The position numbers and the translations under genes are program-made. Below, in pieces: positions 3,209 to 36,100 of a stretch of 36,673 bases of DNA (the stretch's first letter is position 1; the number at the start of each line of letters is the position of its first letter). Location: NCBI GenBank assembly GCA_031281225.1, contig JAITFQ010000076.1, forward strand, positions 1-36,673, written 5' to 3'. The notes under the pieces were generated by a model. It was not told where the DNA came from and ran no database searches. It saw nothing but the letters and a program-made list of their open reading frames with translations. The DNA comes from Chitinispirillales bacterium. Lineage in GTDB: Bacteria; Fibrobacterota; Chitinivibrionia; Chitinivibrionales; Chitinispirillaceae.

Positions 3209-4039
3209 TTACATCGGCATGATTTTCTTGCCGCGGAATAGATCCCTGTCCACGCGCCCGGCTTTTTCTAATAGCTTTTTCTCGGCGGGCGTTAGCGATT
3301 CCATGCCGCCTTTTGATATTTTCTCGAGGATGGGGTCGATCACCTGCTCAAAATGTTTTTTCCGGTTGACGGCTTGCGCCTCTCTTTCCTTCCGCCTTTT
3401 GACTTCCCGTGAATAGGCTAACTTTTCAACGGCAGACTGTATCAACGGGAAAAATCTCAGATATAGCCAGGCGACCAAAATCCCGCCTAAGTGCGTCATG
3501 TGGGATACGTTGCCGCTGTGGCCTCTGAATGAGAAGAACACGGAGAAAAACGCGTAGCCTATTACGAGCATCCGCATTTTTATGGGTATTATAAAAAACA
3601 GCAGCACCTGCCTGTTCGGGTAATAATGCGCGTACGCCGTAAGCACCCCTAAAACCGCGCCCGACGCGCCTATCACCATCACGTACGGATTACCGAAAAA
3701 GAGGTACAAAAATGAGAAAAAACCCGCGCCGACACCGCATATAAAGTAGAAAATCAAAAATTTCTTGCCGCCCCAAAGGTCTTCAAGCTCTGTGCCGAAC
3801 CACCAAAGGATCAGCATGTTGAAAAGGATGTGGAAGAGCATGTCCGGTGAGTGGAGAAACATGTAACTGACGGGGCGCCAAAGTTCAAAATTAAAAATTG
3901 TGCGGACTGGCATAAGTGCGCCCAAAGATGTCACCCTGTCCCCTATCACCGGCAAGAGCTGCATGATAAACGCGACGACATTGGCTATGACAATGCCCTT
4001 CACATAGGGGGAAAATTTTTGCGTTTGACCGTACATCAT
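3209..4039 (-). CDS. Rhomboid family intramembrane serine protease
   Basis: A 276-residue polytopic membrane protein. The catalytic serine is in GASG (Ser126) and the catalytic histidine in the MTHLGG segment (His183), with the HILFNM segment (Asn74) preceding, which is the standard rhomboid arrangement. About six hydrophobic helices lie between residues 14 and 198. Residues 200-276 form a charged cytosolic tail rich in K, R and E. Rhomboids cleave transmembrane helices of other proteins; the substrate here is unknown. The first codon overlaps the coaD stop in an ATGA arrangement, so it is probably translationally coupled to coaD. Two consecutive ATGs occur at 4039 and 4036; the first is used here. 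Confidence 0.92.
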   Translation of the reverse strand: MMYGQTQKFSPYVKGIVIANVVAFIMQLLPVIGDRVTSLGALMPVRTIFNFELWRPVSYMFLHSPDMLFHILFNMLILWWFGTELEDLWGGKKFLIFYFICGVGAGFFSFLYLFFGNPYVMVIGASGAVLGVLTAYAHYYPNRQVLLFFIIPIKMRMLVIGYAFFSVFFSFRGHSGNVSHMTHLGGILVAWLYLRFFPLIQSAVEKLAYSREVKRRKEREAQAVNRKKHFEQVIDPILEKISKGGMESLTPAEKKLLEKAGRVDRDLFRGKKIMPM

Positions 4040-4515: not shown

Positions 4516-5086
4516 CTATTATCCCGCTTCCGTGATTATCGTTACCGTAAATTTCGATGACCGTATCCGAATAGACACGGACGTCTTTTATTCCCAGCTT
4601 ACCGCCGGTACCGGCGGATTTTTTTTCGCGCTGGCCGCGGCGGCGTTCGTAAATCAGCAAACCGCCGGTTTTTAACAGCGGCAACAGTTGGGGGATGAGC
4701 TCCCGCAAATCGGCGTTATCGTAGGGCGGATCGTAGTAAACTATATCGTATAAATCAACGCGCCCCGAAATAAACTTCCGAACGTCGTCACGTACAATTT
4801 TAGCCCTGCCGCCCAGCCCCAAGTCTCTAGCGACGTCGGCGATCCTTATCGACCGTATCTTGTCGGCTTCAACAAAATCAACCTGCCCCGCGCCCCTGCT
4901 GAGCATCTCAAAACCGAACGCCCCGCTGCCGGCGCAGAGGTCAGCGGCAGTTGCGCCCCGAACCTTTTTTTTAACGATCTCCGCGACAGACTCCCTGACC
5001 CGTTCGAGCGTGGGGCGGCAGGCGGTGTTGTCGGGGATGGTGATACGCCTGCCTTTTAATTCGCCGGATATTATGCGTAATTTCAT
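4484..5086 (-). CDS. rsmD: 16S rRNA (guanine(966)-N(2))-methyltransferase RsmD
   Basis: A 200-residue SAM-dependent methyltransferase. It opens with RIISGELKGRRI, typical of RsmD, then has the R-P-T-x-x-x-V-R-E-S signature (residues 24-33), the SAM-binding DLCAGSGAFGFE loop (49-60) and the catalytic D-P-P-Y motif (119-122). RsmD methylates G966 of 16S rRNA in the assembled small subunit. The C-terminal ~50 residues after YERR are polar and end in a tail overlapping coaD. The ATG at 5086 has only a weak upstream ribosome site. It leads the rsmD-coaD-rhomboid unit; an intergenic palindrome lies just upstream at 5110-5132. Confidence 0.93.
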   Translation of the reverse strand: MKLRIISGELKGRRITIPDNTACRPTLERVRESVAEIVKKKVRGATAADLCAGSGAFGFEMLSRGAGQVDFVEADKIRSIRIADVARDLGLGGRAKIVRDDVRKFISGRVDLYDIVYYDPPYDNADLRELIPQLLPLLKTGGLLIYERRRGQREKKSAGTGGKLGIKDVRVYSDTVIEIYGNDNHGSGIIDVDSDLSGDV

Positions 5087-7859: not shown

Positions 7860-10154
<2,295 letters not shown>

Positions 10155-10178
10155 AAGTAAGGGGCCCGGACGGGAAAA

Positions 10179-10475
10179 TTACTTCTCGTCCAGGTGGGAA
10201 TCGACGAATTTTTTGTCTTCCGGATCGAGGAATTTATTTTTCTCAAGCGTAAACGTCAGCGCTTTTATTGTCCTGTTGAGGTGGGCGAAGTCGTTTTCTT
10301 TGAAGGCTACGAATTTCGCGTCAATGGCGTCAAATTTACTATTAAATTTCCCCTCCATTTCATCAAATTTTTTACCAATATACAGCCTGAACCACGTAGA
10401 ACTCACCCCTATCGCAATAATAATGAAAAGGGTTCTCAAGTTTTCAGCATTCAGGACTAAAGTCACTGATTCCAT
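10179..10475 (-). CDS. Small membrane-anchored coiled-coil protein, unknown function
   Basis: A 98-residue protein with a hydrophobic segment near residues 14-29, then a charged helix (about 35-80) with heptad-like spacing of F, I and L among K, D and E residues, as in repeated KFDEMEGKFNSKFDAIDAKF. This suggests a short membrane anchor with a cytosolic coiled coil. I recognise no family. The ATG at 10475 has an excellent GGAGGG site 5 bases upstream, supporting a real gene. It lies 24 bases upstream of the helicase start on the same strand, so could be co-transcribed with it. Confidence 0.65.
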   Translation of the reverse strand: MESVTLVLNAENLRTLFIIIAIGVSSTWFRLYIGKKFDEMEGKFNSKFDAIDAKFVAFKENDFAHLNRTIKALTFTLEKNKFLDPEDKKFVDSHLDEK

Positions 10476-10550
10476 ACCATCCCTCCGTTTCTAATCATAA
10501 TATACTACATTTTTCAAAAAAAAGCAATTTTTTTCACAAAACAGACGGCA

Positions 10551-10645
10551 TCATTTATTTACCCTTGCGGCAACTCTAAAATAAAGGGGGTATATGCCTG
10601 CGTCGCGCGGTGTCGTTTTGGCGGCGCGGAAGTCGGGGAAGATCA
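10551..10645 (+). pseudogene. Decayed, internally deleted copy of the phosphatidyltransferase gene start and its upstream region
   Basis: Three blocks of this gap match, in the same order, pieces of the intact gene 1.0-1.4 kb downstream. Block a (10551-10593) matches the leader at 11588-11630 and includes ttgcggcaactctaaaat. Block b (10591-10607) is tatatgcctgcgtcgcg, as at 11734-11750. Block c (10607-10645) matches 11977-12015 and includes gcggcgcggaagtcggggaa. The parts between the blocks are missing, so it cannot encode the enzyme. It is best read as a duplicated then deleted remnant, marking the left side of the JAMM cassette. The rest of the 10476-10772 gap holds only AT-rich sequence and a promoter candidate. 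Confidence 0.75.
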
Positions 10646-10704
10646 CCCGATTTGACGCCCTAACGCCGGTTTAGACCGTTTTTGAAACAAAAATAATTCA
10701 GGTA

Positions 10705-10734
10705 TTGACATCTATCATCCCTTAGTAGTATTTT
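10705..10734 (+). promoter_or_regulatory. Candidate sigma70-type promoter for the JAMM cassette
   Basis: TTGACA (10705-10710) is a perfect -35 box and TATTTT (10729-10734) follows after 18 bases. The TTG start of the JAMM gene is 38 bases further on, with AAGGAG between. Confidence 0.5.
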
Positions 10735-10772
10735 AGATTAGGTGCCGACAAACCAAGAAGGAGCGGTGGAAA

Positions 10773-11315
10773 TTGATTAAACCACAGGATGAAAATGTTA
10801 TACTTAACGATGAAAAAGTCCTTGAGACGCTCCTTAAAGTAGAACTGGAAATAAAGGATAGCAACGGTTGTGAAATAGGGGTTGTAGTCGATCGTAACGG
10901 GAAAGAAATTTACAGGGTTAACGGGCAAAAAGCCGAAGTAGAAGCCCCGCCCGATGACTTGGTTAAAAACAATGTTTTTACGCACAATCACCCTAGCGGA
11001 AATTGTGCATTCAGCAATAATGATATATATAATATCGTTAAACAAGATGGCTATGAACTGAGAGCCGTAACATCTGATGGACGGTTTGTGAGCCTGAGAA
11101 AAAACGCAAATGTTTGGGACGCCAATATCTTAAGTGGGTTTAGTAAGGTTAGCGGTTACAGGCTTTTTGTAAAAGCAAGTCAACTTGCGCAAATAAAGCA
11201 TAGCGGGCAAGCAACACCCATTCAAATAAACAAGGAGGCAGAAAACCTTGTAAACGAGTGGCTGCGCAATAATGCGGAAAAGTATGGCTATATTTTCACG
11301 GAAGGGGTGATATAA
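10773..11315 (+). CDS. JAMM/JAB-type metalloprotein related to RadC and phage-head JAB domains
   Basis: A 180-residue protein. The stretch THNHPSG...SNND contains His71, His73, Ser81 and Asp84 spaced H-x-H-x7-S-x2-D, the zinc-binding JAMM+ motif; Glu34 or Glu45 upstream could supply the catalytic acid. The preceding VVDRNGKEIYRVNG strands and following ELRAVTSDGRFVSL strand match the JAB fold in RadC-like and phage minor-head or polymorphic-toxin proteins. These domains are isopeptidases or peptidases in known cases; the substrate here is unknown. The C-terminal 60 residues are a helical extension I do not recognise. The start is TTG with AAGGAG 9 bases upstream, as no in-frame ATG exists nearby. 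AT-rich, unlike its neighbours, and one base upstream of the 85-residue gene. Confidence 0.72.
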   Translation: MIKPQDENVILNDEKVLETLLKVELEIKDSNGCEIGVVVDRNGKEIYRVNGQKAEVEAPPDDLVKNNVFTHNHPSGNCAFSNNDIYNIVKQDGYELRAVTSDGRFVSLRKNANVWDANILSGFSKVSGYRLFVKASQLAQIKHSGQATPIQINKEAENLVNEWLRNNAEKYGYIFTEGVI

Positions 11316-11316
11316 C

Positions 11317-11574
11317 ATGGTTTTGATATCCAAAACAGATGATGTAGAAGCCTTCAAAGTATGGGTTAGACCCCCAAACGAGGGGCCCAAAGGTTACGAT
11401 GATCGTATCGGCTTTATGGACGCCCTCTGCTTGGCTGTCCACTATAGAGACGAGTACAAATCGCCCCTAATGCTACAAGAATTGGAAAAGCTCTATCCGG
11501 GAGACGTAAAAGCGTCAATAAGGGTAGCCGAGGAAAATGTAAAATCGTCGATGAGCGAACTTGTATTCGCATGA
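11317..11574 (+). CDS. Unrecognised 85-residue partner of the JAMM protein
   Basis: Starts one base after the JAMM stop, so the two are almost certainly co-translated. The protein is acidic and predicted mostly helical: an N-terminal strand-rich part with FKVWVRPPNEGPKGYDDR, then helices around FMDALCLAVHYRDEY and LMLQELEKLYPGDV, and a helical tail. No signal peptide or membrane segment. I recognise no family. Being small and coupled to a probable enzyme it could be a substrate, inhibitor or immunity protein, which is inference only. Its last codons overlap the repeated leader that precedes the phosphatidyltransferase gene only by position, not sequence. Confidence 0.65.
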   Translation: MVLISKTDDVEAFKVWVRPPNEGPKGYDDRIGFMDALCLAVHYRDEYKSPLMLQELEKLYPGDVKASIRVAEENVKSSMSELVFA

Positions 11575-11586
11575 CCACTTTCTCAA

Positions 11587-11630
11587 TCATTTATATTTAC
11601 CTTTGCGGCAACTCTAAAATAAAGGGGTAT
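11587..11630 (+). repeat. Right copy of a ~43-base direct repeat flanking the JAMM cassette
   Basis: This leader of the phosphatidyltransferase gene (starting atcatttat, containing ttgcggcaactctaaaat and the aaagggg ribosome site) is repeated almost exactly at 10550-10593 in the same orientation, about 1,037 bases upstream. The two copies bracket the JAMM gene and its partner. Confidence 0.8.
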
Positions 11631-11633
11631 CTT

Positions 11634-12230
11634 ATGAATTTAGCGACATTAATCACCGCTTCCCGCGTAGCCATCGCGCCGGTGTTTGCGTATCTGTTTA
11701 TTAAAGGGTACGGCTCGGACGGCAGCGGGTGGATATATGCCTGCGTCGCGCTGGCCGCCCTCATAGAACTGTCGGACATAATCGACGGCACGGTCGCGCG
11801 GGCGCGCAAAGAGGTCACGGACTTCGGAAAAGTTTTTGACCCGGTCGCCGACAGCGTCTCCCGCCAAACGGTTTTTATTGCGTTTATGGTCGCCGGCATT
11901 ATCCCCCTCTGGATGTACCTTGTGTTTTTTTACCGCGACGCGTTCATGCAACTGCTTCGGATAGTCTGCGCGTCGAGCGGCGTCGTCCTCGCGGCGCGGA
12001 AGTCGGGGAAGATCAAGGCGGTCTTGCAGGGGATAGCGACGTTTGGGGTCCTGGCGGTAGTTTGGGCAATCGGCGCAGGGCGGATGGAAGCGGTCGTCTG
12101 GGGGCGGCACCCCGGATTTTGGGTAATGATTCTGCCGGCGGTCTACACCTTATTGTCGGTTATTGACTATATTGTGCCGAATGGAAAATTGATTTTGAAA
12201 ATGATGGAAGCAAAAAACAAGGGGGGATGA
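11634..12230 (+). CDS. CDP-alcohol phosphatidyltransferase family protein (PgsA-like)
   Basis: A 198-residue integral membrane enzyme. The family motif D-G-x2-A-R-x8-G-x3-D-x3-D is present at DGTVARARKEVTDFGKVFDP (about residues 44-67), with all catalytic acids intact. Several hydrophobic helices follow. Members transfer an alcohol headgroup to CDP-diacylglycerol; PgsA makes phosphatidylglycerol phosphate, but the substrate cannot be fixed from sequence. The ATG at 11634 is chosen over the longer frame from 11571 because it has AAAGGGG 8 bases upstream and begins NLATLITASRVA, the usual start. Its leader and parts of its body are duplicated at 10551-10645. A short GGGGA/TCCCC hairpin overlaps the stop. 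Confidence 0.88.
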   Translation: MNLATLITASRVAIAPVFAYLFIKGYGSDGSGWIYACVALAALIELSDIIDGTVARARKEVTDFGKVFDPVADSVSRQTVFIAFMVAGIIPLWMYLVFFYRDAFMQLLRIVCASSGVVLAARKSGKIKAVLQGIATFGVLAVVWAIGAGRMEAVVWGRHPGFWVMILPAVYTLLSVIDYIVPNGKLILKMMEAKNKGG

Positions 12231-12824: not shown

Positions 12825-13973
12825 ATGCCGAGGAACACAATTTTGGACATCGAACAAAGCAATTCCGAGCGCCAGCTATACATCAGCCAAAAGCTGGACA
12901 TCGTTGGCCAGTTAGCCGGCGGCATTTCCCACAATTTTAATAACCAGCTTACCGGGATTATGGGGTTCGCCAACCTTATCAGCATGAGGTCGGGCGACGA
13001 CAATATCAAAAAGTTCGCCGATGAGATTCTCGGCATCTGCAAAAACGCCGGCGACATGGTACGGGAGCTGCTCACTTTCGCCCGCTACAAGCCGGTGGCT
13101 ACAGCCGATATAGACGTTCACGGCATTATCACCACTATTACCAATCTTCTCGCCAACAGTATCGACAAACGGATCGTTATTGAACATAAGCTCAGCGCGG
13201 AGCACTGCGCAGTGGTAGCCGACGCGATTCAGTTGCAGAGCGCACTTCTGAATTTGGCGCTAAATTCCAAAGATGCAATGCCCAAGGGTGGGGTCATCAC
13301 GTTTACTACGTCCAATATCGTTGACGGCAATGGCGGCTGTTTTGTGAAGATAGAGGTCGCCGACACCGGCAGCGGCTTCGGCGGCGACGTTGAGCCGCAT
13401 CTGTTTGAACCGTTTTTTACCACCAAGGGGCAGGGGCATGTCGGCCTTGGGCTATCGGCGGTGTACAGGTTTGTGAAATCAATGAACGGAGTGATAGAGG
13501 TGAGCAGCACTGAGGGGCGGGGGACATCGGTAGTTCTTCTGCTCCCGGTCTACGCCGCCGCTGCGGACGTGGCGGAAATTTGCCGTACGAGCACGGGCGG
13601 CACCAAGAGAGTAGAGGGCGGCACGATACTTTTAGTCGACGACGACAAGGGCATCCGCGACAGCATATCCGCGTTTCTGAAAGGGCTGGGCTACATCGTA
13701 ATCACCGCAAGCGACGGCCTTGAAGCAGTAGAGGGGTACACAGACACATACGCCGGAGTTGATTTGGTAATTATGGACATGGTAATGCCGCGCATGGGCG
13801 GCAAGGAAGCGTTTGTGAAGATGAGGGCGATCAACCCCGCGATAAGAGCGGTCGGCATTACAGGCTTCACCAAGCACACCGCCGAAGAGATGACCGCGCT
13901 CGGTATGAAGCGGATCCTGCACAAGCCATTTTCGTTCGACGAACTGTCGAGCGTCGTCACGGAATATATTTGA
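12825..13973 (+). CDS. Hybrid histidine kinase with C-terminal receiver, no sensor domain
   Basis: About 382 residues, soluble. The dimerisation helix carries the phosphoacceptor histidine in GGISHNFNNQLTG (residue 36 from this start), followed by the HATPase domain: N box LLNLALNSKDAM, G1 VADTGSGFGG, F box FEPFFTTKG and G2 GLGLSAVYRFV. A receiver domain occupies about residues 265-382 with LLVDDDKGIRD, the phospho-acceptor Asp in VIMDMVMPRMGG and the conserved Lys in HKPFSF. It has no PAS, GAF or membrane part before the H box, so it may take its signal from a partner protein. GTG at 12810 is an alternative start but lies in a palindrome. The nrdR start is one base after the stop. Confidence 0.88.
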   Translation: MPRNTILDIEQSNSERQLYISQKLDIVGQLAGGISHNFNNQLTGIMGFANLISMRSGDDNIKKFADEILGICKNAGDMVRELLTFARYKPVATADIDVHGIITTITNLLANSIDKRIVIEHKLSAEHCAVVADAIQLQSALLNLALNSKDAMPKGGVITFTTSNIVDGNGGCFVKIEVADTGSGFGGDVEPHLFEPFFTTKGQGHVGLGLSAVYRFVKSMNGVIEVSSTEGRGTSVVLLLPVYAAAADVAEICRTSTGGTKRVEGGTILLVDDDKGIRDSISAFLKGLGYIVITASDGLEAVEGYTDTYAGVDLVIMDMVMPRMGGKEAFVKMRAINPAIRAVGITGFTKHTAEEMTALGMKRILHKPFSFDELSSVVTEYI

Positions 13974-27323: not shown

Positions 27324-30300
27324 TTATCTGACAACGATGACGCTCGATACGCGCTGCGTCTTTTGGCCTTCCGTGGTCAGGACGCCTCTTATGAGGTACG
27401 TGCCTTCGGATACGGGGCGGCCGCTTCTGTCGGTCAGGTTCCAACTGCCGATGGCGCGGCGGTCGGTGTTGCTCGAAACGTCTGAAACGTTAACGGACGC
27501 AATCAGGTTACCGGTCGCGTCGAAGACGTTCAACGTGCCGTTAACTAATTTTACGCCGTTCCAGAACAGGGTTACGCTGCCGTCAGACTTCGCGACTACG
27601 TTCGGGCCGACGGTGAATTCACCGGAGACGGGAACGGTCGGGACGACGATGACTTCGATGTCGCCGTCACCGGGCAGATCGCGGTTGCCTTCGTTTACGC
27701 TGACCGCGGTACCGATTGTAACGGTCGTGGTAGCGCTCGCGAAAGCGGTGGCGGTCGCGGCTACGCGGACCTGATAGTCGCCGGAGGCGAGGCCGGTAAC
27801 GCTTGTGCCGGTGATGGCAATCCAGTCACCAGTGCTGCCGAGCCTGTACTGCATGCCGGCGGCTACACCGTGAATCGCGCCGGTTCTCGTCGCGTTATTG
27901 GTGGTATCGGCCGTCGTCGTGAGGCCCGTGGGGGCGGCGAGACGAGCGGGGATTACCAGAGACTGGGCGTCGCTGTCGATGTAGACGATGTGGCCGGCCT
28001 GAGCCTTCGCGACGGTTACAATCGCGACGGTTGAGCCAATCATATCGCCGACAGGGAGCGTGCCGTTTGTGATGGTAACATCATCGCCGTCAATTGCGTA
28101 GTTGCTGCCGGAAACAAAACCGGTGAGGGTCTCGGCGGCGAAATTGATAGCTACGTCAGGCGTGGCTTCCTGTTCTTCCACTTCGTTGATACCGATGGTC
28201 ACGTTAGCGATCGCGCTGGCGAAAGCTGTTGCTGTCGCGGCGTAGCGGACGTTATAAACGCCGGCGCCGAGGCCTGTGGCCGCGGTGGTTCTCCACATAC
28301 CGCCAGCAGCTCTCCACTCCATCGCGTCCGTAACACCGGTGATAGCGCCGTTCTCTTCTTCAAAATCTGTGTCGACCGCTACGAGGCCTGTGGGGGCGGC
28401 GGAGCGGGCGGGGATTTCGAGTTCCTGAGCGTCGCTGTCGATATAGACGATGTGGCCGGCTTGCGCCCTCGCGACCGTTACGATTGCGATTTCGCTGTCA
28501 AGCCACTCGGGGTCGATGGCAAGCGTTGCACCGGTAAGGGTGACCGCTACGCCGTTGACTTCGTAGCTGCTGCCGGTAACAAAACCGGTGAGGGTTTCGG
28601 CGGCAAAGTTGATAGCTACGTCAGGCGTGGCTTCCTGTACTTCCACTTCGTTGACGCCGATAGTAACAGCCGTGGCCAAGCTGGCGAAAGCTGTTGCTGT
28701 CGCGGCGTAGCGGACTTCATAGCCGCCGGCGGCGAGGTCTGTGGCCGCGGTGGCTGCCCACGTACCGTCGACAATTCTCCACTCCATACCGGCAGTGATA
28801 CCGGTGATAGCGCCTTCCTCAACACCGTAATCGGTGTCGACGCCGGCGAGGCCCTCAGGGGCGGCGCGGCGGGCGGGGATGAAGAACACTTGCTCGTCGC
28901 TCTCAACGCTGAACTGACCCGGCGTTACAGGCCACAGTATGACTCTGACCGAATCCGCATAGCCCATCCACTCGGCGTCGATAGCAACCGTGCCGGCAGT
29001 GCTGACGGTCACGTCATCGCCGTTTACCGTGTAGGTTCTGCCAGTGGTGAAACCGGTGAGGATTTCGCTCAGGAAGTTGATAGCAACGTCAGGGGTTGCT
29101 TCCTTGTGAACGTCGGTACCGACCGTCACTTCGATTGCGTAGCTGGCGAAAGACCCTTCGACATTAATTGTCGACGCGGCCATGCGGATTTCGTACACAT
29201 CGGGGGCGAGGCCGGTTACCGACGTGCCCACGACGCGTGTCCAGTTTTCGTCACCTTCCGCTCTCCACTCCATTTGGTTCGTTACGCCGTTGATACGGCC
29301 ATCGGTCGCCATGAGGCTGGAGTTTACGGTTACAATATTTTCCACGAGCGTGGCAGGGAAAGCCGGGCGCACGGGGATGTTGAGTACGTTCGCTATGCTC
29401 GGGAGGCCCCAAGTGTAGCGCGGGAGGGCTATGACCTCAACCGACTTGCCGAACCACTCTTCATCTATGGCTACGTTATTGACTTCGCTCACCGTTTGGG
29501 TCGCGCCGCCTACGAGGCCGATTGTGTACTCTCTGCCGTCAACCAGGAAACCGGTGATGGTTTCGGATTCCCAACTGACAAGAACAGCGGGCATAGGTTC
29601 GGCGAGGTTTTCGTCGTCCTTAAAGCGCACTGTAACGGTCACCGTATTCGCGGTTTCGTCGATATTGCCGCCGTCAACCGTAAGGGTGATGGTGAAGAAA
29701 TCGCCGTTTAGGGTTTGATCGGTGACGTCGAACGACAGGGTTCTGCCTTCTACCGTGGGTTCGCCGTCGATCATTGTACCGCCGTCGTTGCTAGCCACGC
29801 TGTAAGCCGCGCCGAAACGCGCAACGTCGGCCAACTGGACATTTACCCCAATCGCTCTTTTCTCGGGCAGTTCCGTCTCCATCACGAGCCACTCGTTTTC
29901 GAGCAGGTCGGAGAGTTTGGCCGGGCTTATCGCAAACCGCCCGATTTCCCGCGGCGTGAGTATGTTGGCGAAGTTGGTGGCGTCGACAGTCTGGATACGC
30001 ATGGCGTAGACGCCCGCGTTTACAGGCTGGGCCACAGAGATACCGTTAGGATTCTCCTCTGTTATGCGCAGGAACGAGAAGCTCGCCGTACCAAGGCCGG
30101 TGTACCGCGCGTGGTAGGTAAACGGCTCGACCCTTATGCTGTCCATCGTGATCCCTCTCAACACATTCTGACCCGTGTAGACCACGGTGTTGGCCGCGTT
30201 AGGAGCCGTGCCAACGACCGACAAAGGCCGGCGGTTGACGGTTTCGGTCGAGGAGGTATCTACTACATAACCCGCGTAGTGGCCCCTGAACATGCCTACC

Positions 30301-33300
30301 GACCCATTGTCAAGGTTTGCCGGGAAGTTCCCCGCCACAGGCGACGCTGTGTCGACGACGATAGTCAGGTTTCTTTCGCTCGCCTCGAAGTGCCCCGCCT
30401 CGTTAGAAACGCGGACGCGGAAGGTCACGCCGGCGGCTGGCGTTACGGCTGTGGCCGTGCCACGCCTGAGCCCGCTCACGATGGTCCCGATACGGCCGGA
30501 GTCGCCAACGGTGACCAATTGGAGGAGCGAATCTCTCGCGGGAATCGCAACCGGGATTATAGGCGGATTGGCGGAGACAGGCTCAAGCCTTACCCTGCCC
30601 ACCGGCAGATTACCGGATACGTGGGTGAAGCTAAGCGTCCCCTTGTGCTTGAAAGACAGCGAGTCAACGCCAATTCTCACGTCAAGCGGGCTGTATGCCG
30701 TCTGCCTTATCGTGCTAACGACGGCGGAATCAAGCGTATTTGCCGCGTTCCTGATTGTGAAACCGGCGAGGGTGGGAGGTATGACAACGCTAGCGTTATT
30801 GTGATCAACGCGCGGCCTTTCCGTCCCTATGGGACCCGTCAAGCTGTCCGCCCAGTTTTGGAAATTGAACGACGCGCCGTTCATGAGCGAACCGACAGAA
30901 AGGACCATTTTACCGGCGTTCTTGAACGAAATTTCAGGAGTAGTACCCGTCGTACGGAACGCGAGGTTCCCGCCCGTGCCTATTATGGTAGTAGCGTCAG
31001 CCGTGTTTGTAAACTGCGTACCGGCAGCCGTTACATCAAGCGTACCGTTAATACGGAGCGTGGAATTGGCAATAGGATTAATCCTCGCCGCGGCTCCAAC
31101 CAAGTTAACCCTACGGCCAGCCGCGATGGTGGTCGTCCTGTTAGCGATCGTATTAATAACGCCGCGCAGAGTGATGTTGGCGTCAACCACACCCGCAATG
31201 GCCAAACCAGCAGTCACCGCAGCCGGCACTATTACAGAGTCAGTCGCAATTATACCGATGTCTCTCGAATTAATAGCAACGGTGGCTGTGGTAGTCAGAA
31301 CCTCAACCCTGCCGGCACGAATAGCAGTACCGAGACTGTCCGGCGCAAGAATCGACGTTGCATTAGTTATCCGCACCGTGCCCGCGATGTCAAGACCTAT
31401 GCCGCGGTTGGCCACGGTGACAGTACCGCCAGCGATAGTGTCTATCGCGGCTGCCGCTGTCGACCTGATGGCCGTGCCGAGAGTGTCGGCTTTTACCTCA
31501 CCGTCCTCAATATTGATACGGTCGCCGGTGGCGTAGATACCCGTACCGGCCCGGCCCACTGTCACGCGGGAGCCAGCGTTGGTGACGTCTATCTTTCCTG
31601 CCGAACGGATGGCCGTACCGCCGTCGCCGGTGAGTACCTTAGCGTTACCGACAGTAATATCAATATCCGCGTTGGCGTTCCAGATACCGCGGCCCGCGCC
31701 ATGCACAAGAACGCTGTCCCCGTTAAGCTCGAACACACCCGCGTTACCCGCCAAACCCGTGACGCCCGTGGCGATGGTAATCACCGAGTCTTCATCAATA
31801 TTACCCGCGACAATCGTACCGTTCGTGAGGGTGAAACTACGTGCGGAAACGGCGGTGCCGGCGAGCGTTGTTGTGCTGTTACCGATCGCGCGGATTGTTC
31901 CGTTTGCCCTCGCCATGCCAACGGTATCGCCAACAACAGCGGTACCCGAAACTGTGGAAATGTCAACTTTTGAAGCCGAAGCCGATCCAGCCCCAATATC
32001 AACTGTTCCATAAGGTGAGTTGACCGCGATCCCGCTAATGGAACGAATTATGATATCCCTGTTAGTAGTCGCGCCGCCCAATACAGTAACCTTCCCCTGA
32101 TCCGCTGCTCCGGCCACCGTATCTATTTGAATAGCGTTACCGGCCACAGCGCTTACGACTGTACTGTCGTTATCCCCAGCAGGAGGATTTATAGTCACGT
32201 TACCCGCAGTCCCCGTCCCTGTGCCCCGCGCGCGGATTGCTCTGCTCGCCGCGCCGCTGCCAGTCGCCCGGATGACCGAGCCAGTAACAGTTATCTCACC
32301 CTCGAAAGCCGCGTCAAGCGCGACGCCGTTCGTGCCGGAAGCCACAACCGTAGCGCCCGTAACCGTGATGTCGCCGTCGCCGTTCGTCAAGATACCGCGG
32401 CCGGTGGCGCCTCTCGAAGTAATAGTCCCGCCCGTGACCGCAACGTTGCCCGTCCCGGCATTGATAGCCGCCGCGGAACCGGTTTCGTTCAGCGCCTCAA
32501 TGACGCCGCCGCTTACCGTTACCGGAGCCGTCGCGATTGCATTTATAGTACGTATGGTGGACCCGTCAAGATTGGCGCCCGAACCACGCACCTTACCGCC
32601 GGCTATTGTAGCCTCAGCCGCCGTAGAGAGGATAATGGCCGATCCGGTGTTCGCTAAAACGAGCGTATCGCCCGTGGACGTCCCGGAGGCAACTGTCCCC
32701 ACATTAACTACCCCATCGCTGCCCGAAGCGTATACGGCTGGCCCCGCGCCGGTCGCCTGAACCGTGCCGCCCCATACATTAACCATACCGCCGTTCACGT
32801 CGATAGCCGCGCTATTAGCGCCGCCGCCAGTGATGACGGAGCCGCCTCTAACAAGAACCCTGCCGGCGCCCGTCCCCATCTTAATGGCCGTACCCGTAGC
32901 CGTCCGAACGACACCGCTGACAAGCAGAATGCTGTCCGTATTCGTGGTCGTCCCCGTAATCTCTACCGCTGTACTTGCGCCGCCCGCTCTGATAGTATCT
33001 ATCCGCGTAATTTCAGCAACGCCACCTGCCCTGACAGCCGTATTCACAGCGGTACTTGAATTTGTCCCTTGGCTTATGACTGAACCGAGTGCCGTCGCGT
33101 TTACACGAACGTCAACACCCGCATAAACCGCTACGCTGTCGCCCTCAATCGTAATGCGAGTGACTGTGGGGGGCATAGTCGTTCTCCATCCCGCGTCAGC
33201 AGTCGCGCGGTCCCCTATCCACGCGTGATTGGAAGCCGAGATAGCCGCTCCGCGCCCTGTTATTGACCCGCCGCGGACGAACACGTCTTTCGCCGTGATA

Positions 33301-35540
33301 GCCGTTGGCCTTACGTTACCCGTTCCTGAAATCGCAATACGCGTATTCCTGTTTGTGCCGTGTTCCCCCACCAGCACGCTGTCCGCCTGAATCAGCGACA
33401 CGCTGTCACGGGGCTCCCCCGTTACCGTGGCGTTCACGACCACAACCGCCCCCGTGGCATAAATGGCGCGGCCGATAGCGCTGGTAATGGTCGGACGCGG
33501 AGCCTCCGCCGCGCTCTGAACCGCGCTGGTTCCGCCTCTCACAACAACATGAGTTGCCGAGTTAATCGCCGTACCGCGGCCGCCGGCTACGCTAACGACG
33601 ATATTCCCGTTAGTCTTCGTATTGTCTGTACTCCCGATCGTGACCGTGCCCGCGTTTATAGCGCCTACGTACGGGTTCCCGGCCGTAGCCGTAGCACGTA
33701 CTTCCGTCGAGGCGGTGTTATTAGCAATACCTTCGAGAGTTACCGACCCGGTTCCCCCCGCGTGTACTACCCAGCCATCCGTAACCGAGCTCCTGACAAC
33801 AGCGCCGCGGATTGTTATGTTTCCACTCGCTGCCGTAACCAAAGCCGGCCCATTGGCGATTGGGAAACGTCCGCCTTCAATCACAATACTCCCACTGCTT
33901 GTCGTCTTCGCAATCGCGCCGCGCAGGTTGGTGGTGTTGTCGGTTTGACCGGTGATGTTTACGTCAGTAAGAGTTATAGCGTTTGCCGCACCGAACACCA
34001 TGTCCGTAGCCGCGACGGGGGTCGCGTTGGTGGTCAGGTGGCGGATGGTCGCGTCATCTACCGTAATCGCGCCCGCGCCGCCGTCAATAACTACGCCGCC
34101 GCCGCCGGCGACGATGGTGGAGGCACCGGTAATAGTGACAGCGCCATCGGTTTTGACAGCCGTACCGAGAGTGGCCGTAAGCGTGCCGCCGGAAACGGTC
34201 ACAGCGGCAGTACCAGCGTCAATCGCCGTGCCGACAGAAGCGGTGACCGAACCGCCACTCATAACGACCGCGCCGTTGTTGGTCTTAATGGCCATGCCGG
34301 AAGCGGCAGTGATGGCGGAACCGGAGTTGATGAGGACTATGCCGGAACCGAGGGCGTTTGAAATGTTCACAAGAGGTTCGGCCGCCGCCTTCCCGGTAAG
34401 AGTAGAATTAAGAGTCGCGTTCCATACTACCGTGAGCCCTCCCGCACCACTCGTAGTTCCAGCAATTACTTCAAGACGATCTACGTTAGTTCCCGCGTTT
34501 CCGGTTACATATATTGTATCCGTGTTTGTATTGTGTGCCGGCATGGTGACGCGTAACATTTTTACCGCGGGCAGATATTGAATACCGCGGATATTTCTAC
34601 CCGGGCCATCATCGTCATACAGGCTGTCTGTCGCGAGCGCGCTTAGGTTGAGCACGAAACGGCGGTCATCTAGAGCCACCGTCCCTGTCACGGCAGGAGG
34701 CGCTGTCATAGGGAAAGTCACGTCGAACACGTAAGTATTTTCGTCGGTTCTCCCCAAACCCGGGCCGGTCGTCACATCACCATCGGCAACAACAATGGCC
34801 CCCGTAGGCGCCGCAGGGAACATATAGTGTTCCACCGCTTTGAGGGTTACGCGAGCGCGATACACCGTCACTCCCTCAAAGCTCTCCGTATGGGCGGTCG
34901 TGCTGCCTGCCGCGAACCATTGGATTGTGTTGGCTGATGTGTTGGTATTGCTCATTGATATACTACCCGTAACCGCCGACACCCCCGTCGCCGGACGCGT
35001 GACACCACTCACGGTGGTTAGGGCAATTGAGCCTTTGGCGACGGGAGCGCTAACAGAGACATCCGTGAACGCCAGATTCGCATTCGCCGGCGCAGCACCA
35101 GTCATAGCCGCTTCGGGAATCTCGCCCGTTGCCGTAATCGTGCCCGGTAACGCAACCGACACTGTTGGAGTTCCCGTCAGGGTCATCGTATAAATCCTGT
35201 TATTCCCCGTCAGAGCGCCGGCAGCGCCCCATGTCAAGCCCGTATGGGCCGAAAGGGATACCAGACCCGCCATATTGACGTGGTGCGATCCCATATCACT
35301 CTGAAACGCCCTATCCCCTGATTCCGATTCATCATTGTCAATCACAAATACCACCGTTGGTATCGGAGTAAGCGTATTCACATTCACGCCCACCTTCAAT
35401 TCCGCGGGAAATCCATGAAACGTTACCGTTGCCGTCGGCACCGGCACCGCCCACACCCCCGTCACCCCCCCCATCACCACTACCATTACCCAAGCCAGCG
35501 TCACCGCCGCCCGGCACTTCCTGAATGCTTTCGTACTCAT
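27324..35540 (-). CDS. Giant secreted beta-helix/Ig-repeat surface protein with FlgD-like C-terminal sorting domain
   Basis: About 2,738 residues. A signal peptide (KAFRK, hydrophobic core, cleavage near VWA-V, about residue 32) marks export. Residues 33-370 are beta-rich and unrecognised. Residues 380-1550 repeat short units of the kind VTVSGGTLTA and GTAIRSAG, pointing to a very long parallel beta-helix. Residues 1550-1980 hold mixed Ig- or cadherin-like beta domains, including TFRVRVSNEAGHF and GDFFTITLTVDGG. Four tandem repeats of about 155 residues follow (1980-2608). The last 100 residues end in LNVFDATGNL, GSWNLTDRSGRPV and GTYLIRG, the FlgD-like Ig fold used as a sorting signal on surface proteins of FCB bacteria. 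On reading I saw no cysteine in the mature part. ATG 35540 (GGAG 7 bases upstream) is preferred over 35558. Probably an adhesin; no enzyme domain was seen. Confidence 0.85.
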   Translation of the reverse strand: MSTKAFRKCRAAVTLAWVMVVVMGGVTGVWAVPVPTATVTFHGFPAELKVGVNVNTLTPIPTVVFVIDNDESESGDRAFQSDMGSHHVNMAGLVSLSAHTGLTWGAAGALTGNNRIYTMTLTGTPTVSVALPGTITATGEIPEAAMTGAAPANANLAFTDVSVSAPVAKGSIALTTVSGVTRPATGVSAVTGSISMSNTNTSANTIQWFAAGSTTAHTESFEGVTVYRARVTLKAVEHYMFPAAPTGAIVVADGDVTTGPGLGRTDENTYVFDVTFPMTAPPAVTGTVALDDRRFVLNLSALATDSLYDDDGPGRNIRGIQYLPAVKMLRVTMPAHNTNTDTIYVTGNAGTNVDRLEVIAGTTSGAGGLTVVWNATLNSTLTGKAAAEPLVNISNALGSGIVLINSGSAITAASGMAIKTNNGAVVMSGGSVTASVGTAIDAGTAAVTVSGGTLTATLGTAVKTDGAVTITGASTIVAGGGGVVIDGGAGAITVDDATIRHLTTNATPVAATDMVFGAANAITLTDVNITGQTDNTTNLRGAIAKTTSSGSIVIEGGRFPIANGPALVTAASGNITIRGAVVRSSVTDGWVVHAGGTGSVTLEGIANNTASTEVRATATAGNPYVGAINAGTVTIGSTDNTKTNGNIVVSVAGGRGTAINSATHVVVRGGTSAVQSAAEAPRPTITSAIGRAIYATGAVVVVNATVTGEPRDSVSLIQADSVLVGEHGTNRNTRIAISGTGNVRPTAITAKDVFVRGGSITGRGAAISASNHAWIGDRATADAGWRTTMPPTVTRITIEGDSVAVYAGVDVRVNATALGSVISQGTNSSTAVNTAVRAGGVAEITRIDTIRAGGASTAVEITGTTTNTDSILLVSGVVRTATGTAIKMGTGAGRVLVRGGSVITGGGANSAAIDVNGGMVNVWGGTVQATGAGPAVYASGSDGVVNVGTVASGTSTGDTLVLANTGSAIILSTAAEATIAGGKVRGSGANLDGSTIRTINAIATAPVTVSGGVIEALNETGSAAAINAGTGNVAVTGGTITSRGATGRGILTNGDGDITVTGATVVASGTNGVALDAAFEGEITVTGSVIRATGSGAASRAIRARGTGTGTAGNVTINPPAGDNDSTVVSAVAGNAIQIDTVAGAADQGKVTVLGGATTNRDIIIRSISGIAVNSPYGTVDIGAGSASASKVDISTVSGTAVVGDTVGMARANGTIRAIGNSTTTLAGTAVSARSFTLTNGTIVAGNIDEDSVITIATGVTGLAGNAGVFELNGDSVLVHGAGRGIWNANADIDITVGNAKVLTGDGGTAIRSAGKIDVTNAGSRVTVGRAGTGIYATGDRINIEDGEVKADTLGTAIRSTAAAAIDTIAGGTVTVANRGIGLDIAGTVRITNATSILAPDSLGTAIRAGRVEVLTTTATVAINSRDIGIIATDSVIVPAAVTAGLAIAGVVDANITLRGVINTIANRTTTIAAGRRVNLVGAAARINPIANSTLRINGTLDVTAAGTQFTNTADATTIIGTGGNLAFRTTGTTPEISFKNAGKMVLSVGSLMNGASFNFQNWADSLTGPIGTERPRVDHNNASVVIPPTLAGFTIRNAANTLDSAVVSTIRQTAYSPLDVRIGVDSLSFKHKGTLSFTHVSGNLPVGRVRLEPVSANPPIIPVAIPARDSLLQLVTVGDSGRIGTIVSGLRRGTATAVTPAAGVTFRVRVSNEAGHFEASERNLTIVVDTASPVAGNFPANLDNGSVGMFRGHYAGYVVDTSSTETVNRRPLSVVGTAPNAANTVVYTGQNVLRGITMDSIRVEPFTYHARYTGLGTASFSFLRITEENPNGISVAQPVNAGVYAMRIQTVDATNFANILTPREIGRFAISPAKLSDLLENEWLVMETELPEKRAIGVNVQLADVARFGAAYSVASNDGGTMIDGEPTVEGRTLSFDVTDQTLNGDFFTITLTVDGGNIDETANTVTVTVRFKDDENLAEPMPAVLVSWESETITGFLVDGREYTIGLVGGATQTVSEVNNVAIDEEWFGKSVEVIALPRYTWGLPSIANVLNIPVRPAFPATLVENIVTVNSSLMATDGRINGVTNQMEWRAEGDENWTRVVGTSVTGLAPDVYEIRMAASTINVEGSFASYAIEVTVGTDVHKEATPDVAINFLSEILTGFTTGRTYTVNGDDVTVSTAGTVAIDAEWMGYADSVRVILWPVTPGQFSVESDEQVFFIPARRAAPEGLAGVDTDYGVEEGAITGITAGMEWRIVDGTWAATAATDLAAGGYEVRYAATATAFASLATAVTIGVNEVEVQEATPDVAINFAAETLTGFVTGSSYEVNGVAVTLTGATLAIDPEWLDSEIAIVTVARAQAGHIVYIDSDAQELEIPARSAAPTGLVAVDTDFEEENGAITGVTDAMEWRAAGGMWRTTAATGLGAGVYNVRYAATATAFASAIANVTIGINEVEEQEATPDVAINFAAETLTGFVSGSNYAIDGDDVTITNGTLPVGDMIGSTVAIVTVAKAQAGHIVYIDSDAQSLVIPARLAAPTGLTTTADTTNNATRTGAIHGVAAGMQYRLGSTGDWIAITGTSVTGLASGDYQVRVAATATAFASATTTVTIGTAVSVNEGNRDLPGDGDIEVIVVPTVPVSGEFTVGPNVVAKSDGSVTLFWNGVKLVNGTLNVFDATGNLIASVNVSDVSSNTDRRAIGSWNLTDRSGRPVSEGTYLIRGVLTTEGQKTQRVSSVIVVR
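27715..29600 (-). repeat. Four tandem ~155-residue beta-domain repeats inside the giant gene
   Basis: Each unit contains a TPDVAINF...LTGF start, an IPAR linker and a final GxYxVRxAATATAFAS strand. Matching points near 28140, 28610 and 29072 are 462-471 bases apart; the fourth, near 29590, is more diverged. The first two in sequence share long identical DNA stretches, for example around aaaccggtgagggt, which suggests recent duplication or gene conversion. Confidence 0.85.
30900..34400 (-). repeat. Beta-helix repeat region of the giant gene
   Basis: About 1,170 residues built from short irregular units, with recurring GTAI, SGG and ATG-type turns and valine/isoleucine strands. Unit length varies, roughly 18-25 residues. 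The region lacks charged clusters and aromatic residues are rare. Confidence 0.75.
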
Positions 35541-36100
35541 AGCACTGCTCCATTTCAAGTTTAAGTTAAGGTTTAAATTTTACCGCTTTTGCCGGTTTTC
35601 CCGCGCTGCGCCTGCCCGTACCCGCCTATACCATATTATTACGCGCCGCCCGCGCGGCCATTTCGGCGCGCATAGCCCCCGCGTAACGCTGCCACACTCA
35701 GGCTGCCACATATTCGCGCGCTATGCGCGTTGCTGCGTGGCGTCCCGTACGGCCGTAGTATGTAGTTGGTATTGTAGCTGGCTCGCCGTTTCCGGCCCAT
35801 CTTTCCATCTTTCCTTCACCCGGATTCTCAGTTTCCGGTCCGTCTTTCTTTGGGCGCCTTTGGCTTCTCAGACCCTTGGCCTCCCCAAATCCGTCTATAT
35901 TTCCGCATGTCTCCCGCCGCGCGTTCTCAGGCGCGCGTTTTCGCGTTTGGCATGTTGTTCTGTTTTGTATCTAATTAGCTGTACAGCGGCGGCGGGGGCA
36001 ACAGATACGTTGCGTCCCCTGTGGCCCTTCGTGAGGAGCAGTTTAGGTTTTTATTGTTTTTTGGCCCTGCTTTATTAATATTTTTCATATTTCCCCATAT
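35541..36100 (-). other. Long leader or decayed gene upstream of the giant gene
   Basis: No single frame explains this GC-rich block. On the minus strand a 37-codon frame starts at ATG 36088 and ends at 35975; a second frame is open from 36050 to 35898 (51 codons, with a protein-like ALRTRGG-type basic end but no start); a third is open from about 35915 to a stop at 35698. Hairpins include cgcgcatag (35667-35675) pairing with ctatgcgcg (35721-35729). Read as a long 5' leader RNA of the giant gene or as a frameshifted gene. The terminator-free stretch to ATG 35540 fits either. Confidence 0.4.

Follow-up and report, generated by a model that had tools for sequence, protein, structure and literature searches.

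In MuF polymorphic toxins, the small genes that follow the toxin genes have been argued to encode immunity proteins (Jamet et al. 2017, PMC5576092). JAB domains occur among the polymorphic toxins surveyed by Zhang et al. 2012, and stand-alone toxin cassettes are described there as well (PMC3482391). For the orphan effector–immunity modules of the V. cholerae T6SS, insertion by homology-facilitated illegitimate recombination has been proposed (PMC5361080).

Here, we analysed a window of 36,673 nucleotides from a Chitinispirillales bacterium (contig JAITFQ010000076.1, positions 1-36,673), in which a JAMM gene and its partner are situated between two copies of the start of a pgsA-like gene. An intact pgsA and an eroded pgsA start around such a cassette may illustrate how toxin units can settle in a bacterial chromosome without a transposase. 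The eroded gene start would be a readable scar, which makes the route of entry testable even where no transposase is at hand.

The JAMM pair and its phage relatives

The cassette consists of the following features.

10707-10739, forward strand: promoter-like stretch ahead of the JAMM pair, with TTGACA followed by a TA-rich part, as read in the sequence
10773-11315, forward strand: free-standing JAMM/JAB protein of 180 aa, which matches the domain at the C-terminus of phage MuF minor capsid proteins
11317-11574, forward strand: partner gene of 85 aa, a predicted immunity protein, resembling the gene after the MuF-type gene in phage contigs

The JAMM protein carries the E ... HxH ... S..D pattern of the JAMM/JAB superfamily. 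The metal-site residues E34, H71, H73 and D84 are invariant in eight homologues, and S81 is present in most of them. The AlphaFold2 model adopts the JAB fold (pLDDT 85), and its best PDB fold matches by Foldseek include Pyrococcus PfJAMM1 (probability 0.99) and RadC (probability up to 0.72), at modest scores (TM to the query of only 0.3-0.4, E >0.01). The Pfam match to RadC lies under the cut-off, and a comparison of the protein sequence with the solved structures gave nothing meaningful. In the fold search against viral proteins, many phage minor capsid proteins are among the best matches of the model. The partner matches no Pfam family and no PHROG family.

Scanning public viral contigs yielded five relatives of the JAMM protein. 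In all five, the JAMM domain forms the C-terminal part of a longer protein of the head-morphogenesis type, and a small partner-like gene directly follows the JAMM-bearing gene. Pfam Phage_Mu_F matches both contigs scanned for it (L078 and L079), where portal genes lie upstream. In the contig L082, the C-terminus of the MuF-type protein is 50% identical to the JAMM protein, and the gene following it is 38% identical to the partner. The JAMM protein thus corresponds to the domain at the C-terminus of phage MuF (minor capsid) proteins, and its partner to the small gene that comes next. Together with the fold search, this indicates that the pair is a free-standing version of this domain and its neighbour. 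The phage homologues possess the MuF part, which the 180-aa protein in the window lacks. We infer a toxin function for the JAMM protein and an immunity function for the partner. A likely origin of orphan toxin–immunity pairs would be the C-terminal domain of a phage head protein and the neighbouring gene, freed together as a chromosomal operon.

How does this pair compare with the described toxins? As in the MuF polymorphic toxins (Jamet et al. 2017, PMC5576092), the phage JAMM domain is a C-terminal MuF extension followed by a gene of <150 aa. In the window, by contrast, the MuF part is missing, and the domain and the small gene form a stand-alone chromosomal unit with a promoter of its own. 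The words “JAB” and “JAMM” are absent from the available part of that text. With the JAB toxins of Zhang et al. 2012 (PMC3482391), the protein shares the JAB fold with its E, HxH, S and D residues, as well as a context of the toxin type, in which an immunity gene (here a predicted one) lies alongside. Tox-JAB-1 and Tox-JAB-2 differ from it in their listed delivery routes, which do not include MuF, and in their immunity families, Imm65 and Imm-NTF2-2, which are other than the partner. The available part of this 2012 survey reports no Tox-JAB on MuF carriers, which counts against the explanation as a MuF toxin. A JAMM domain on MuF proteins with a partner family of its own appears in the available part of neither article (PMC5576092, PMC3482391), and would represent a new toxin–immunity pair that can be tested.

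Another phage protein, ORF29 of the pneumococcal phage MM1 (NC_003050.2 14542-15288; L080:3617-4363), weakly matches most of the JAMM protein, as do 28 other Streptococcus phage records, and phrog_5057 matches over the same span as ORF29. Unlike the MuF-type relatives, the ORF29 type lies ahead of the terminase as a free-standing gene with no MuF fusion, and it shows 28% identity to the JAMM protein (E 0.05). A ubiquitin-type (E1/E2/DUB) operon was ruled out for the pair, as such genes do not adjoin it.

Distribution in the genus

The genus was sampled with eight genomes, the window's own (G000) and seven congeners. A free-standing JAMM pair is present in three of the eight (the own genome, G005 and G006), each time at a different locus. 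Two of the pair-bearing genomes, Chitinispirillia bacterium Co191P1bin56 and Fibrobacteria bacterium GUT77, we take to be MAGs of the termite-gut type. The pairs in G005, G006 and G007 also have comparable TTGAC...TATATT stretches ahead of them. Duplicated flanks were looked for at the G005 and G006 pairs, and none were found. In a tree of eight JAMM sequences, the three free-standing pairs do not all group together, which disfavours a single origin, within the limited support of the tree.

In G007 (C57; L044:3920-4271), the partner is intact and lies directly downstream of a JAMM gene of which only small pieces are left, in order. These comprise the promoter-like stretch and the last dozen codons, both identified by alignment, and the MCNLS codons, located by eye. 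Loss of the JAMM gene with retention of the partner is as expected of a toxin–immunity pair.

These observations bear on a different view, in which the JAMM protein would be no toxin but an enzyme that has been domesticated (a RadC-like one or a processor of ubiquitin-like proteins, for instance), and its partner a substrate or an adaptor. The intact JAMM residues and the presence of a JAMM peptidase and RadC among the nearest solved folds are consistent with such an enzyme. However, the tie to MuF carriers with a small gene following, the patchy distribution at loci that change, and the retention of only the partner in G007 all argue against it, and we consider a domesticated enzyme doubtful.

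A repeat of the pgsA start upstream of the cassette

A repeat search revealed three direct-repeat blocks in 10550-10645. They are collinear with the leader of pgsA and with two segments inside the gene.

11586-11627, forward strand: pgsA leader, intact copy, delimited by its alignment with block 1
11634-12230, forward strand: intact gene for a pgsA-like CDP-alcohol phosphatidyltransferase (PF01066, E 5.6e-30)
10556-10589, forward strand: remnant block 1, matching the leader at 11594-11627 (34 nt, 97%); extended, 10550-10589 matches 11586-11627 (93% allowing a 2-nt gap)
10588-10608, forward strand: remnant block 2, matching an inner part of pgsA at 11731-11751 (20/21 identical, 95%)
10600-10645, forward strand: remnant block 3, matching an inner part of pgsA at 11970-12015 (46 nt, 89%); trimmed, 10605-10645 matches 11975-12015 (35/39 identical over 10607-10645, with four synonymous differences)

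The score of each block was reached in 0 of 2000 dinucleotide shuffles, and the best alignment of the remnant region scores 69; the shuffles reach 32 at most, and the rest of the window gives 35. An earlier note on this DNA had described three ordered blocks matching the pgsA leader and inner parts, with the JAMM gene and its partner between the copies. This description holds: the blocks align far better than shuffled sequence, and none of the congeners possesses them. In two details it needs correction, since the second block, itself real, corresponds to 11731-11751 rather than 11734-11750, and the pgsA gene starts with the ATG at 11634. A whole-genome search with the blocks gave no match outside the pgsA places themselves, and the remnant is absent from all seven of the same-genus genomes searched. 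The source of the blocks is not a second pgsA paralogue, because pgsA is single-copy in the own genome (one match). Nor is the leader a genome-wide regulatory element, as it occurs in two places only and is absent upstream of the congeners' pgsA.

The spacing of the blocks indicates that the left copy is short of two internal pieces, of ~105 bp and 227 bp. The ~105-bp loss, which joins blocks 1 and 2, occurred at TAT and left one extra G, and the 227-bp loss, which joins blocks 2 and 3, lies between two GCGTCG words. Slippage between short repeats typically produces deletions of this type. The first ~430 bp of pgsA with its leader (11586-12015) thus once existed in two copies, on either side of the cassette. 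The pgsA remnant and the G007 JAMM gene are eroded in the same style, and this “shredding” into ordered scraps therefore probably reflects the usual way in which genes decay in this lineage.

In block 3, pgsA reads GGC GTC GTC CTC, where the remnant reads GGT GTC GTT TTG (GGC>GGT, GTC>GTT and CTC>TTG), and all four of the base changes in this block are synonymous. If the four are independent, the protein remains unchanged in 0.65% of random trials (P 0.0065). Three of them fall within four bases and may represent one event, and when the changes are counted as two events, P is 0.09. The exclusively synonymous changes suggest, on a small sample, that the remnant may be a diverged allele, which diverged under selection, rather than a freely decayed duplicate.

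On the other side of the remnant, between it and a UvrD/PcrA-like helicase gene, the minus strand encodes a small protein of 98 aa (10179-10475), which probably has one membrane segment and has no Pfam match.

The left joint and a dispersed element

At its joint at 10645, the left copy is not continued by pgsA, and instead abuts a different repeat, with at most ~1 shared base at 10645/10646. This repeat belongs to a dispersed element, as its tail; the alignment of the copies defines the element as an intergenic sequence of ~110 bp with a hairpin. The copies without a strand below lie on other contigs of the own genome.

10646-10676, forward strand: tail of the dispersed ~110-bp element, 90% identical to G000:C96:4699-4729 in the own genome (E 5e-5)
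10670-10691, forward strand: 22-nt match (20/22) to the flank of the DUF3791/DUF3990 pair at G000:C64:4689-4710, directly downstream of another element-tail copy
C45:13094-13214 and 13800-13895: element copies flanking a vapBC pair on both sides (86% over 96 nt)
C96:4265-4310 and 4699-4729: element copies beside a vapBC pair
C64:4750-4777 and ~3440-3480: element copies flanking the DUF3791/DUF3990 pair on both sides
C5:252-358: element copy near a nucleotidyltransferase-type pair
C61:2277-2359: element copy near a HicAB-like pair

These toxin–antitoxin pairs were named from their translated sequences, except for DUF3990 (Pfam). Since the element tail and the 22 nt are common to the flanks of toxin–antitoxin pairs, the left flank of the JAMM cassette is of the same kind, and the element could serve as a recombination substrate for cassette exchange. 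It has no match in the seven congeners. As for a possible identity as an integron attC site, inspection by eye revealed no core sites.

Route of entry

How did the cassette reach the space upstream of pgsA? We favour homology-anchored illegitimate recombination over transposition, because it accounts at once for the long repeat, the synonymous changes and the abrupt joint to a foreign flank. With modest confidence, we propose that a MuF-type module was brought in by such recombination with related DNA, and that the left copy was then eroded. We infer both the recombination route and which of the two copies is older.

Arrival: The cassette would be a free-standing MuF-type toxin–immunity module, composed of a JAMM/JAB domain and then a small cognate immunity gene, under its own promoter. 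It would have reached this space on the DNA of a related cell, which also bore the start of pgsA.

Joining: One end would have been anchored by homologous recombination in pgsA, and the other would have been joined by illegitimate recombination within the first ~380 bases of the pgsA reading frame. The product would read truncated pgsA, cassette, leader and intact pgsA.

Erosion: The truncated left copy, being useless, would have shed its internal pieces via deletions between short repeats.

Homology-facilitated recombination would be expected to leave one joint with homology and the other with little or none. At the left joint, ~1 base is shared at most; on the homologous side, a trace could be recognised only against the donor or parent sequence. 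As in the V. cholerae T6SS modules (PMC5361080), one end would be anchored by homology and the other illegitimate, with remnants of the displaced gene left behind; in contrast, V. cholerae uses as anchor a conserved region upstream of the effector–immunity module, while here it would be the housekeeping gene pgsA. The window carries ComEA-like and PilM genes, and elsewhere the genome encodes ComEC and DprA. These competence-type genes are permissive only for a route by natural uptake, as ComEC and DprA occur too in bacteria not noted for competence.

The earlier note had instead read the locus as an insertion into a single pgsA region, in which inserting the cassette would itself have doubled at least 430 bp of target, followed by unconstrained decay of one copy. 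Its account stands in that at least 430 bp were once present a second time, with the cassette in between, and in that the left copy lost pieces. An ordinary insertion with target duplication is not supported in that form, because the left joint fuses pgsA to the dispersed-element tail (the repeat at 10646-10676 had been missed, and the cassette had not been identified as a toxin-type module of the phage MuF kind) and the coding differences are all synonymous. A target duplication would yield the same final layout, and the two copies otherwise differ little (97% identity in the leader); however, a transposase is absent, and hundreds of bases are too long for target-site duplications, as no transposase is known to duplicate that much of its target. 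We therefore regard it as possible but unlikely. The target-site duplication of an insertion sequence is ruled out, as no inverted repeats flank the insert and none of the ORFs in 10154-12230 encodes a transposase; the earlier note had likewise stated that no transposase is present.

Alternatively, the pgsA start may have been duplicated in tandem first and the cassette inserted later between the copies, or the cassette may have come first and the duplication arisen by template switching during repair. The sequence does not fix the order of events, and the joint at 10645, with little or no shared sequence, would fit. Either order, however, requires two separate events at one site, and the congeners show no duplication without the cassette, which renders both quite improbable. 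The support that the earlier note had sought, from strains that carry a single leader and lack the cassette, could be looked for in other species only: six of the seven congeners have one pgsA without a JAMM pair beside it, and the seventh, a draft, shows no pgsA. The upstream DNA and the neighbours of pgsA differ in all of them, and thus none is a clean empty site.

Beyond this locus, homology-anchored recombination leads us to a tentative and rather speculative suggestion. Free-standing JAMM toxin–immunity pairs derived from phage MuF head proteins might be a roaming chromosomal module in termite-gut Chitinispirillia, moved by natural transformation and anchored in housekeeping genes, with truncated gene starts as their scars, together with other toxin–antitoxin pairs that share the dispersed flanking element.

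Minor reading frames

The remnant contains one short reading frame composed of pgsA scraps and the element tail.

10594-10674, forward strand: 26-codon ORF MPASRGVVLAARKSGKITRFDALTPV, which arose from the deletions, behind the copied ribosome-binding site

It is possibly meaningless. That the remnant is alive, with the copied leader, ribosome-binding site and new ATG yielding a 26-codon peptide whose selection explains the synonymous changes, is highly improbable: the frame does start 4 nt after GGGGG, keeps the pgsA frame in block 3 and continues in frame into the element tail, but ORFs this short are often chance products and no relative has this one. Elsewhere in the window, the minus strand carries an ORF of 2744 aa at 27324-35558.
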